Below are positions 9,520 to 64,000 of a DNA stretch of 64,000 nucleotides, one piece after another (position 1 is the stretch's first letter; each line of letters opens with the position of its first letter). The translations under genes were made by a program, and so were the position numbers. Origin of the DNA: Lacipirellula parvula (GTDB lineage: Bacteria > Planctomycetota > Planctomycetia > Pirellulales > Lacipirellulaceae); assembly GCF_009177095.1 (NCBI RefSeq), contig NZ_AP021861.1:6554501-6618500 (forward strand), written 5' to 3'. The notes under the pieces were generated by a model, which searched no databases, was not told the DNA's origin, and worked only from the letters and a program-made list of their open reading frames with translations.

Positions 9520-9607
9520 TTGTGGGAGGCGTCTCCGACGCCGATTTCGCGCTGCCAAATGTAATCAGCCCGCGGCGCGTCTTCGGGGTCAGAGCCCCCT
9601 CCCACAA
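9520..9607. repeat. Family H palindromic element, copy 1
   Basis: It starts TTGTGGGAGGCGTCTCCGAC and ends with the approximate inverse (TCGGGGTCAGAG then CCCCCTCCCACAA). The left arm contains its own GGCGTCTCCGACGCC palindrome. Copies 2 and 3 are at 53296 and 60722. It lies in the gap upstream of the amidohydrolase. Confidence 0.88.
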
Positions 9608-11740: not shown

Positions 11741-11824
11741 GTCAGTGGTCCGTTGTCCGTGGTCAGTTGCTAGGAAGAAGTCACTCCCCTCTCGCAACTG
11801 ACAACGGACTACTGACAACTGACC
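11741..11824. repeat. Family C element, copy 2
   Basis: Left arm 11741-11770 (GTCAGTGGTCCGTTGTCCGT...), right arm 11793-11824 (GCAACTGACAACGGACTACT...). The unit composition differs from copy 1, as if units were shuffled. It lies between the operator at 11841 and the pirin start. Confidence 0.88.
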
Positions 11825-22630: not shown

Positions 22631-23209
22631 ATGCAGATCTCCGGCCGGCTGATCATTGTGGTGATGTTCGCACTCGCGATTGCGATGTCGGGGGGGGCGT
22701 GGCTTTACCAGTACAGCTACTCGCGGCACTCGGCGGAGTTTTGGGGGCCGGCGGGGTCACTCATTGTGAAGTCGCCGGAGTTGCAGTTGCTGGAACTGGC
22801 GCCCGCGGATTCGCCTGCCGAGGGCGAGGACGCGGGGGCAGAGGTTGATCTCAGCAATCAGGTGGCGGGGCGGAACGTGGTCGATCACCACGACCTGCGG
22901 AAGAAGCCGGGGCTGATTCATCTGCGGCATGTGTTCACGCAGGATAGCAACTTCGTGTGGGACGAGCGTAGCGTGGAGCCCGTTGATGGCGGGAAGCGGG
23001 AGTGGGCGTACGCCGTGCGGTTCGTCGATGGGGAGGCGGAGCAGATCGTGCTGTTCACGCGCGACTTTGAGCTGATGGGGAAGCTGTCGGCGGATGGGGC
23101 GACGGTGGAGGTGCTGCCTTGTGCGCGCATGGCGGGGGCGGTGACGACGTATTTGCGCGATGTGGGGGCGCTGGAGCGAAATTCCAACCGTGAGGTCCCC
23201 TCCCCTTGA
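22631..23209 (+). CDS. Uncharacterised single-pass membrane protein, 3' end inside a repeat
   Basis: 192 residues. One N-terminal membrane helix (LIIVVMFALAIAMSGGAWLY), then an extracytoplasmic domain with an acidic linker (DSPAEGEDAGAEVDLS) and a beta-rich body (HLRHVFTQDSNFVWDERSVE). No family recognised. The last four codons plus TGA (Val-Pro-Ser-Pro-stop, 23195-23209) are the start of a family G repeat, so the native C-terminus may have been replaced. The ATG at 22631 has no good SD and follows a family E hairpin by 10 bp. Confidence 0.7.
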   Translation: MQISGRLIIVVMFALAIAMSGGAWLYQYSYSRHSAEFWGPAGSLIVKSPELQLLELAPADSPAEGEDAGAEVDLSNQVAGRNVVDHHDLRKKPGLIHLRHVFTQDSNFVWDERSVEPVDGGKREWAYAVRFVDGEAEQIVLFTRDFELMGKLSADGATVEVLPCARMAGAVTTYLRDVGALERNSNREVPSP

Positions 23210-23292
23210 GGGGGAGGGCTAGGGAGGGGTGACAGCAGCGGGTACCAGGGTTCCTCCCCCTCCCCAGCCCTCCCCTCCAGGGGGAGGGAGCC
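23195..23292. repeat. Family G palindromic element, copy 1
   Basis: It opens GTCCCCTCCCCTTGAGGGGG and closes CAGGGGGAGGGAGCC around a central GCGGGTACCAGGGTTC. It is almost identical to 63847-63944. It supplies the stop codon of the preceding gene. Confidence 0.92.
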
Positions 23293-23520
23293 AGAACATT
23301 TCTCTTCAATCTGTCTCCGACAAAGATTGCTGTTGAATAAGCTTCTTCGCGCGACGTTGGGGCCACGGTCGGCGGCGTGGAGGGCGCCCCCCGGGCGGAG
23401 CTCGGTGCTAAATGGGGCGGGAATCGCACCGCTAGCATCTTTGGCGAATGGTCTGGAGGCGGGTGGGGGCGGGTTCTATACTCCGCGGCCCACTATCGGC
23501 GTTGCTTGCGGTCGCGCGTG

Positions 23521-43760: not shown

Positions 43761-43798
43761 CCCCTCGACTTGAAGCGCAGCGCCCGCGTGCGCGTTCG

Positions 43799-43897
43799 TC
43801 CCCTCCCCTCGAAGGGGAGGGTTAGGGAGGGGTGCCTGAAGCGGGTACCAAGGTTCTACCCCCTCCCCCCGCCCTCCCCTCAAGGGGGAGGGAGCCT
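43799..43897. repeat. Family G palindromic element, copy 2
   Basis: TCCCCTCCCCTCGAAGGGGA ... centre GCGGGTACCAAGGTTC ... CTCAAGGGGGAGGGAGCC. It lies between convergent genes. Read on the minus strand in one frame it encodes the same Trp-Tyr-Pro-Leu-Gln peptide that copy 3 adds to folK. Confidence 0.92.
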
Positions 43898-43939
43898 GAA
43901 GTTCAGAAAGACGATGCGAGGTAGTTCGCTAGAGGCTCG

Positions 43940-50257: not shown

Positions 50258-50358
50258 GTCCGCGGTCAGTGGTCAGTGGTCAGTGGTCAGTTGCTGCTGT
50301 CGCAGAGTTCAGAATCCCACGTATTTCGCAACTGACAACTGACCACGGACAACTGACA
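50258..50358. repeat. Family C element, copy 3
   Basis: The left arm is a run of GGTCAGT units (50258-50294), the right arm GCAACTGACAACTGACCACG then GACAACTGACA. Copy-specific centre. Located between sigma factor and anti-sigma-like gene. Confidence 0.9.
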
Positions 50359-53295: not shown

Positions 53296-53388
53296 TTGTG
53301 GGAGGCGTCTCCGACGCCGATAGCGCTCCCCACCACACAGCGGTCGCCCGCTGGCAAATCGCCTCGGGATCGGAGATCCCTCCCACAG
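53296..53388. repeat. Family H palindromic element, copy 2
   Basis: TTGTGGGAGGCGTCTCCGAC at the left, ATCGGAGATCCCTCCCACA at the right; the centre differs from copies 1 and 3. It ends seven bases before the stop codon of the isomerase-like gene. Confidence 0.9.
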
Positions 53389-60721: not shown

Positions 60722-60813
60722 TGTGGGAGGCGTCTCCGACGCCGATGACGTTCACCGCCACAAACGCTCGTGACTGCGCGAAGCCGCATCGGGGTCGGAG
60801 ACCCCTCCAACAA
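60722..60813. repeat. Family H palindromic element, copy 3
   Basis: TGTGGGAGGCGTCTCCGACG at left, TCGGGGTCGGAGACCCCTCC at right. The right arm lacks part of the terminal CCACA match. Together with 60676 it fills the 306-bp gap between the sigma gene and lgt. Confidence 0.88.
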
Positions 60814-62255: not shown

Positions 62256-62347
62256 GTCAGTTGTCCGTTGTCAGTCGTCAGTTGTGAAGGCCAGCTGGTA
62301 GATGCCGCTATCTAGTCGCAACTGACAACGGACCACTGACAACTGAC
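62256..62347. repeat. Family C element, copy 4
   Basis: GTCAGTTGTCCGTTGTCAGT then CGTCAGTTGTG at left; GCAACTGACAACGGACCACT then GACAACTGAC at right. It ends four bases before the panC stop. Confidence 0.9.
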
Positions 62348-62351
62348 GCGA

Positions 62352-63218
62352 TTAGCCAATCCGCAAATTATCGATCAGCCGCGTCGTGCCGACCTTCGCT
62401 GCGACGGCAATCGTAATCGGGCCGCTGATCGTCGCAACTTCGTCGACCGTCTCGTCGCGGACGATCGCGACGTACTCGACGTTCACGTCGCCGGCCGCCG
62501 CCAGGTGTGCTAGCATCCGCTCACGAACCATAAGTGCGTCGCGCTCGCCGCCGGAAATTAATTCTTCTGCCAACCGCAGCGATTGGCTCAGCGAGAGCGC
62601 TCGCCGCCGCTCATCGGGGCTGAGGTAAACGTTCCGCGAACTGAGCGCGAGCCCGTCGGCGTCGCGAATGATCGCGCAAACTCGCACATCGACCGGCAGG
62701 TTGAGGTCGGCGGCCATCCGCTTCACGACGAGCGTCTGCTGATAATCTTTCCGCCCGAAGTACGCCCGATCGGCCGGCACGCATTCGAACAGCTTCAGCA
62801 CCACCGTCGCGACGCCAGAAAAATGCCCCGGACGTGCGGCGCCTTCCCACGGCACGGCGACGGCGCCGACGTCGATCGACGTGCCATAGCCCGCCGGATA
62901 CATCTCAGCCGCCTCGGGCACGAACACGAACTCGCAGCCCCGCTCCCGCAGCAAATCGAGATCACGCTCCAGCGGCCGCGGGTACTTCGTAAAGTCTTCG
63001 TTCGGACCGAACTGCGTTGGGTTGACGAAAATACTCGCCGCGACGCGATCGCATTCCGCGGCAGCCGCGTCGATCAAACTGAGGTGCCCCTCGTGCAGGG
63101 CGCCCATCGTCGGCACGAAGCCGACCGTCTCGCCGCCGCGCTGCACGTCGCGAATCGCGGTGCGCATCGCTTCAACGCCGTTGATCACCTGAAGGGAACG
63201 AGGCACGGCGGCGGGCAT
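62352..63218 (-). CDS. panC: Pantothenate synthetase
   Basis: 288 residues. Joins pantoate and beta-alanine with ATP to make pantothenate for CoA. Diagnostic motifs: the HxGH ATP site VGFVPTMGALHEGHLSLID, the SIFVNPTQFGPNEDFTKYPR loop, the pantoate site (RPGHFSGVATVVLKLF, YFGRKDYQQTLVVKRM) and the KMSKS-like SSRNVYLS. Intact at both ends. It begins 6 bp after folK, so folK and panC probably form one transcript. Confidence 0.96.
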   Translation of the reverse strand: MPAAVPRSLQVINGVEAMRTAIRDVQRGGETVGFVPTMGALHEGHLSLIDAAAAECDRVAASIFVNPTQFGPNEDFTKYPRPLERDLDLLRERGCEFVFVPEAAEMYPAGYGTSIDVGAVAVPWEGAARPGHFSGVATVVLKLFECVPADRAYFGRKDYQQTLVVKRMAADLNLPVDVRVCAIIRDADGLALSSRNVYLSPDERRRALSLSQSLRLAEELISGGERDALMVRERMLAHLAAAGDVNVEYVAIVRDETVDEVATISGPITIAVAAKVGTTRLIDNLRIG

Positions 63219-63224
63219 CGCGAG

Positions 63225-64000
63225 CTAATCCGAAGGGGGTGCGACCGCCGCCAGCTCCGGCCACACTGCTTGGATCGCCGCCGCCGCTTCGGTCATCGGG
63301 TCGGCCGCCCCGAGTTGAGAGATCCACGCGACGGGGCCGCCGGTTGGAAGGTTAGGCATTCTACGCGAACCAGCCCCGGCGTGGAACGCGGGTCTGGCGG
63401 GCTGCGTCGGCGATTCACCAGCGGCCGTGGACGCGCTAGAAAAATTCAAAATTAATTTCGGCCGGCGTCGCCGCGACTCGTCGGCGCCCGCGCGGTAGGC
63501 AGCCCACGTCACGATTTGCGGCAACGCGAGCGCACCAGGGCTCGCCGCAAATGCATTGCGGAAGTGAGCACGCAGTCGCTCGGCCCACGCTTCAGCCTGT
63601 TGCTCGCTGTCCGCGATCACTGCGGCGACATCGGTGCCATGTTGAAGTTGCCTCAGCAGCGCAGCGACCGTCCAGCCGCTTGGCGGATGGATCATTCCCG
63701 GCGCGACGGCGGCAGCCGGCTCAAGGACGAAGCGCCGAAACGCCATCCGCGGATGCGGGACAATGAGATTGTCCGCATGACAGGGCGGGCGGCGAATCTC
63801 ACTTACCTGCGAACCGTCGAGAGAGCGAGCGACTAATGACTCTGAGGTCCCCTCCCCTTGAGGGGGAGGGCTAGGGAGGGGTGATTGCAGCGGGTACCAG
63901 CGTTCCACCCCCTCCCCAACCCTCCCCTCAAGGGGGAGGGAGCCAGAGAGAAGTGAATGTTGTTGAGAGCTTACGAACTGATCGTAGAGGAGTAGATCGA
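63225..64000 (-). CDS. folK: HPPK (folate biosynthesis) with an in-frame repeat-encoded insertion; 5' end outside window
   Basis: 6-Hydroxymethyl-7,8-dihydropterin pyrophosphokinase, transferring pyrophosphate from ATP in folate synthesis. The frame runs from the stop at 63225 to the right edge. From 63998 leftwards it reads DLLLYDQFVSSQQHSLLS, matching the LDLDLLLYD region, and then NLIVPHPRMAFRRFVLEPAA from about 63776, the conserved PHPRM block and downstream region. Between the two, nucleotides 63847-63944 are a family G palindrome read through in frame without stop, adding about 33 residues (SLPLEGRVGEG, WYPLQSPLPSPPP). A long non-family extension is present at the C-terminus (about 100 residues after LLRQLQHG). 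Activity may or may not survive the insertion. Confidence 0.85.
   Translation of the reverse strand, partial: DLLLYDQFVSSQQHSLLSGSLPLEGRVGEGVERWYPLQSPLPSPPPQGEGTSESLVARSLDGSQVSEIRRPPCHADNLIVPHPRMAFRRFVLEPAAAVAPGMIHPPSGWTVAALLRQLQHGTDVAAVIADSEQQAEAWAERLRAHFRNAFAASPGALALPQIVTWAAYRAGADESRRRRPKLILNFSSASTAAGESPTQPARPAFHAGAGSRRMPNLPTGGPVAWISQLGAADPMTEAAAAIQAVWPELAAVAPPSD
63847..63944. repeat. Family G palindromic element, copy 3, inside folK
   Basis: GTCCCCTCCCCTTGAGGGGG ... centre GCGGGTACCAGCGTTC ... AAGGGGGAGGGAGCC. It is 98 bp long and lies within the folK reading frame, which it extends rather than ends. Confidence 0.93.

Follow-up and report, generated by a model that had tools for sequence, protein, structure and literature searches.

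A dispersed palindromic repeat lies in frame within the folK gene of the planctomycete Lacipirellula parvula

We analysed a 64-kb stretch of DNA, referred to here as the window (G000:C1:6554501-6618500), from the genome of Lacipirellula parvula (G000; 6.92 Mb, single contig). The minus strand at the right-hand end of the window carries the 3' part of folK, the gene for HPPK, and addition of the neighbouring sequence placed the folK start 289 bases past the window end, at genome position C1:6618789. A preliminary description of this DNA had reported an open minus-strand frame from 63998 to 63225, and this was borne out, since the frame is uninterrupted and belongs to a complete HPPK ORF of 354 aa (locus L031, 2290-1226). 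Downstream of folK lies a gene that we take to be panC from its VPTMGALHEGH motif, and the two genes form a probable operon. Upstream of folK, a 655-aa frame (L031 3343-5310) appears, by eye and from its motifs, to join uroporphyrinogen-III synthase to uroporphyrinogen decarboxylase in a single protein. The features of the locus, together with the other copies of the repeat that are found in the window, are collected in Table 1.

Table 1. Features of the folK locus and family G copies in the window (window coordinates)
Feature	Position	Strand	Remarks
panC	62352..63218	-	288-aa ORF, 6 nt after folK stop; orthologues in relatives
folK (HPPK), 3' part	63225..64000	-	354-aa ORF and PF01288 match
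Conserved LIVPHPRM block resuming after the insert	63747..63770	-	reading frame and alignment of relatives
Rest of the lengthened folK loop, outside the element	63771..63837	-	
Full palindromic family G element in folK	63838..63957	-	120 nt, codons 111-151, ends approximate
98-bp family G core in folK	63847..63944	-	two inverted hairpin units, short spacer
Family G copy	23191..23295	+	overlaps 3' end of a predicted gene
Family G copy	43794..43898	+	intergenic according to our own gene calls

The folK product reads as a normal HPPK N-terminal half up to DLDLLLYD, followed by 71 residues, the block LIVPHPRM and a C-terminal tail. The PF01288 profile matches both halves in one stretch (residues 6-197, E 6.3e-31; profile positions 2-116 of 116), with a score of 107.6 bits against a curated cut-off of 25.7, and this is the one PF01288 match in the G000 genome. 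Alignment with solved HPPKs was clear for folK residues 3-106 (77.5 bits), and residues 171-215 matched chain residues 108-147 of a solved HPPK at the expected place and weakly (8.5 bits, i-E-value 11). What we take to be the catalytic and Mg-binding motifs of HPPK (RxR, W, R, DxD, H, R, F) are readable on both sides of the insert. The protein therefore resembles other members of PF01288 in having the full domain above the curated cut-off, with conserved sequence on both sides of the insert, but differs from other HPPKs in the approximately 63 extra residues that precede VPHPRM. Codon-model scores along folK were weak (+11.1 before the loop, -10.2 within it, +4.2 and +3.3 after it), and the gene was missed by both gene callers written for the analysis, one for the window and one for the family G copies. 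An AlphaFold run on the G036 HPPK and the window fragment of folK gave a mean pLDDT of 34.9 and was uninformative. Because G000 also encodes a folP-type gene (315-aa frame, PF00809 E 9e-85), the folate pathway is, judging from the genome sequence, probably in use in this organism.

The sequence interrupting the HPPK domain includes a member of a dispersed palindromic repeat, here called family G. The three copies described previously in the window are real (found at 23191, 43794 and 63843), and the other two had correctly been called gene-ending or non-coding, as the first overlaps a predicted gene end and the second is intergenic. The repeat is, however, longer than the 98 bp first attributed to it: in a profile of 30 copies run over the fetched loci, the conserved flanks reach past this core on both sides, giving an element of about 120 bp. 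Lengths across 102 copies ranged from 109 to 132 nt by this profile and were divisible by three in 36 of them; the folK element, at 120 nt, equals exactly 40 codons, which contradicts the earlier suggestion that the length of the repeat alone would shift the frame. All 40 family G copies that were scored also matched the opposite strand, with 74-80% identity, as terminal inverted repeats, and the 120-nt folK element folded as RNA has a predicted energy of -80.6 kcal/mol (z -6.5). Some copies, for instance those at L005, L006 and L013, run on at the right end into a small palindrome like GCCACAACATTTGTTGTGGC, which could place the true end of family G about 10 bp farther outward. No known RNA family was found in the 64-kb window at the gathering threshold. 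The window also holds a short dispersed repeat made of CAACTGACAACTGAC-like units, outside called genes (11773-11823, 50307-50357 and 62297-62347).

Across the G000 genome, family G occurs at 126 places with at most 3 mismatches to a 35-nt half of the element, whereas a reversed control pattern gave 0; among the 100 places listed (26 of the 126 are not), 71 match this half exactly. Profile searches of the fetched loci gave 114 hits, including 103 full-length copies. These 103 form a non-random sample, consisting of the best genome-search matches together with places picked for long open frames, and two listed places (5452556 and 5639724) are not in it. With 97% identity to a 99-nt consensus, from which it differs at 3 of 99 positions, the folK core ranks 21 of 103. 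The element is readable in essentially one direction: in the translatable orientation the three frames are free of stops in 40, 47 and 53 copies out of 102 (140/306), as against 2, 1 and 1 (4/306) in the opposite orientation. Since there is one translatable orientation and about one third of the lengths are divisible by three, we estimate that roughly 8% of random family G insertions into genes would be readable.

We then asked how many copies lie within protein-coding sequence. A codon-model scan of 102 copies found positive flanks over 150 nt, on both sides and in the same open frame, in folK alone. In 35 of the 103 copies the element is crossed by open frames 100 aa or more in length, 41 in all, and a Pfam search of 40 of these (L171:1327-1641 being left out) identified a domain spanning the element, HPPK, in folK alone. 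Three further frames considered as coding copies, L112 (sulfatase), L028 (DUF2585) and L122 (Lumazine_bd_2), were rejected, as in each of them the domain begins after the element, which more probably forms an N-terminal segment or is untranslated. Another candidate, L104 (50582), has weakly positive codon scores in its flanks (1.9 and 3.6), but it was set aside on finding no Pfam domain and an antisense look by eye. As called by a gene caller whose sensitivity is limited, folK itself being missed, 94 of the 103 copies lie outside genes and 9 lie partly over one; predicted genes make up 82% of the window, so that about 84 of the 103 would be expected inside genes if placement were random. Family G is thus strongly excluded from genes, with folK as the one exception that we found. 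One copy (C1:1545263-1545384, L179) lies about 80 bp after the folP-type PF00809 match (1544459-1545181), and it is probably chance that folK and the folP-type gene both have family G in or beside them.

Searches for the source of mobility covered the Y1 transposase family (PF01797), which has 4 matches in G000. As none of the 4 has family G within about 1.5 kb, we rejected the idea that family G is a RAYT-borne REP. Three of the 4 are flanked by other inverted repeats, of GTAGCCAGGGGC, TGTGGGAGGCGTCTCCGACGCC and GCCGCGACCGGCGG types. The TGTGGGAGGCGTCTCCGACGCC repeat also occurs in the window (9521-9561, 53297-53337 and 60722-60762), and it likely forms a repeat/transposase pair with the Y1 match at C1:1466181 (L092) that it flanks. 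Of the 103 copies, 88 could be anchored, and with element ends that are not exact these showed no excess of target site duplications over shuffled pairs.

HPPK was found in 39 of the 43 genomes of the family, and 24 of 30 fetched loci could be aligned, the remaining ones being missed by the motif used. As the preliminary description had proposed, the extra sequence in G000 is an in-frame addition flanked by two conserved motifs of HPPK, in DNA that carries several palindrome families. Its estimate of about 33 added residues was too low: the G000 loop has 71 residues as compared with 8 in the insert-free G035 (hand count), that is, about 63 extra, of which the element accounts for 40 and other sequence for about 23. 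Comparison with relatives agreed with an addition in that 20 of the 24 aligned family members are without such an insert (G035 and G025 among these; G001 has a small extension); in G034 and G036 this loop is occupied by a palindrome of another kind. Within the Pirellulales, HPPK was found in 278 of 296 genomes, with one match listed for each, and by eye almost all spans measure 375-423 nt, the G171 match being partial and that of G035 split. The longest spans are 576 nt in G000, 498 in G036, 495 in G034, 471 in G290 and 435 in G031. The same loop varies mildly in length elsewhere; the distant member G290 (L218, G290:C2) has about 22 extra Gly/Arg-rich residues there with no obvious repeat, and the G031 protein has no extra residues in the loop. 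The G035 protein (L224, G035:C144:9969-10310) is without some 19 mid-domain residues before RWAARPLDLD, a gap that reflects a damaged gene, an assembly error or an odd variant.

In G036, the folK loop holds ATTGCAGCCCCGGGCTCCGCCCGGGGG...CCCCCCGGCGGAGCCGGGGGCTGCAAT, in frame and starting at nearly the same codon as family G in G000. This insert belongs to a dispersed family of its own, with 73, 52 and 52 matches in G000, G034 and G036, respectively (E <= 0.001, both strands, 40 candidates scored per genome). G034, a member of the same genus as G000, has a more diverged insert of the G036 kind at the same place; it too is open, and the gaps between the two inserts (loci L221 and L222) are multiples of three. 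A third palindrome lies in the same loop of G037, where the contig ends inside it; this palindrome is dispersed in its own genome, with 56 matches including itself on both strands. A tree of 24 concatenated reciprocal-best frames (uncurated, with some frames overlapping) grouped G034 with G036 with support 100 and left G000 outside, and single-gene trees conflict, panC joining G000 with G034 (82) and folK joining G034 with G036 (83). Either the folK loop was entered separately by two palindrome families in sister lineages, or one family has taken the place of the other.

Outside the loop, pS between G000 and each of G036 and G034 is 0.46-0.60. Because the folK core differs from its consensus at 3 of 99 positions, set against this divergence, the sequence comparison indicates that the insertion is young relative to the species split. 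As the folK copy is young, its open frame alone is no proof of selection for that frame. The ratio dN/dS for G000 against G036 or G034 is 0.16-0.22 in the part preceding the loop and 0.25-0.38 in the part that follows, and spans 0.16-0.38 outside the loop over all three pairs. Loop pN/pS reaches 0.76-0.80 in the same two comparisons, in which the aligned sequences need not be homologous, and 0.69 between G036 and G034. These rates fit a constrained enzyme with a free loop but, the insertion being too young, do not demonstrate selection after it.

Several known systems bear comparison with this arrangement. According to Di Nocera et al. 2013 (PMC3733652), GTAG/CGTC REPs occur within ORFs of several bacteria, mostly in the verrucomicrobium O. 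terrae and in R. conorii, where they encode 20-30 residues; GTAG REPs are present in PVC bacteria, and different REPs occupy about the same recB site in two Xanthomonas species. Family G is like the REP dimers of that account in consisting of paired inverted palindromes that are dispersed and mostly intergenic, with some in ORFs, but differs in its longer pair (about 120 bp), in that no flanking Y1 transposase was found and in its target, the HPPK loop. By eye, its consensus has TTAG/CTAA beside the stems and no GTAG/CGTC. Rickettsia RPE elements (Ogata 2000, 2002, as summarised in PMC10969869) are palindromes of about 150 bp lying in frame in genes, and nearly half of those of R. conorii are in ORFs. 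The likeness to RPE drawn in the preliminary description stands at the sequence level for folK, where a dispersed palindrome of similar size sits in frame in an unrelated housekeeping gene, but it does not extend to the genome, in which 1 of 103 family G copies is spanned by a Pfam domain. RU elements, as described in PMC2759123, are MITE-like, measure 103-168 bp and keep the frame inside annotated enterobacterial genes; by this description, family G resembles them as a small mobile repeat with the frame kept in a gene, with different hosts. In-frame palindromes are therefore less rare outside Rickettsia than had been supposed, to judge from PMC3733652 and PMC2759123. Other bacteria already offer examples of palindromes read as protein, and G000 folK would be a further one. 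Neither family G nor a palindrome inside a folK gene was found in the titles and abstract openings of the open-access papers listed, up to 20 per search. What appears to be new, as far as the genome sequences indicate, is that in the two genomes closest to G000 this loop contains a palindrome of a different dispersed family, likewise in frame.

We consider it probable that family G inserted recently into a permissive HPPK loop and is read as a neutral extension of the protein. In this scheme, a dispersed, non-autonomous palindrome of REP-dimer or MITE-like character would have entered folK recently, in the sole translatable orientation and in frame, landing in a length-tolerant loop between the DLDLLLYD strand and the VPHPRM strand. 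Translation of the element would add about 40 residues, with a high content of Pro, Gly, Ser and Glu, forming a segment that is presumably disordered and at the surface. Because the HPPK sequence is intact on both sides, the enzyme should remain functional and the insertion would be nearly neutral. In the sister lineage, this loop would have taken up a palindrome from a different family.

Other histories of the locus would account for parts of the same evidence. A palindrome of the CCCCGGG type may have entered the loop before the three species split, with family G landing later in its remains in G000, which would make the loop a nested or replaced insertion. This reading is rather unlikely in our assessment, although about 23 of the 63 extra residues in G000 do lie outside the element, and in a 12-nt stretch that precedes VPHPRM, 11 positions agree with the end of the G034 insert. 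Of 500 shuffles, 30 reach that score, and 317 of 500 reach the score of the equivalent comparison with the G036 insert; moreover, G034 and G036 are sisters, so that two separate insertions suffice. A search of the genus with the extra loop sequence (query 63765-63846) found no repeat match (best non-self E 0.1). That the insert is an assembly or sequencing artefact is barely credible: repeats are the usual sites of assembly failure, but the genome is a single contig, the folK copy shows individual deviations from the consensus and borders on unique sequence on its right side, and comparable inserts are present in G034 and G036.

Readings that concern function depend on what the insert does to the enzyme or to the message. 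Against the preferred reading, a loop of 71 residues with a hairpin of -80 kcal/mol could slow or stop ribosomes. Alternatively, folK might be damaged outright, the insert lowering or abolishing HPPK activity and the open frame being a recent accident. The copy is young, the loop residues evolve fast, and the single copy among 103 within a protein domain implies that such insertions are usually removed; yet this is the one HPPK gene, its C-terminal half is complete and PF01288 extends over both halves, and in G034 and G036 an in-frame insert at the same place has long been tolerated if it was inherited from their common ancestor. We therefore judge damage to be improbable. Still harder to accept is the proposal that selection keeps an mRNA hairpin and not the peptide, with unrelated palindromes supplying a stem that slows ribosomes or tunes folK/panC output. 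Strong folds do occur at the same folK place in G000 and its relatives (z -7.25 in G036, -4.6 in G037 and -3.46 for the full insert in G034), panC begins 6 nt after folK, and the stem arms retain more identity between G036 and G034 than the spacer does (47/60 against 17/32 columns; hand count, Fisher p 0.017), with 2 of 28 stem pairs changed on both sides. This comparison involves two sequences, however; in one of them 4 pairs do not form, and 138 of 500 shuffles reach the covariation. Any palindromic element would fold in this way, hairpin-templated mutation also yields compensated changes, and 20 of the 24 aligned family members, including G035, are without such an insert. A broader version, which we regard as improbable, would have unrelated palindromes land repeatedly in this one loop of an essential, single-copy enzyme, with at least two families, and perhaps a third, arriving within the same few folK codons in separate lineages of the Lacipirellula group, each with a strong hairpin and at least two in frame, retained as a useful hairpin or disordered loop. 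If this were true, the hairpin or loop would set, for example, the HPPK:PanC ratio.

A recent, near-neutral insertion of family G into a permissive loop thus remains our preferred account of the folK locus. With this case, the genes known to harbour a mobile palindrome in their reading frame come to include that of a central folate enzyme, in a planctomycete. That 1 of 103 copies lies within a protein domain shows how strongly such insertions stay out of genes, and the folK loop suggests that one loop accepts mobile DNA more than once. Different palindrome families occupy one loop in related species, with insert-free relatives for comparison, and the route from insertion to neutral protein segment is therefore directly testable.
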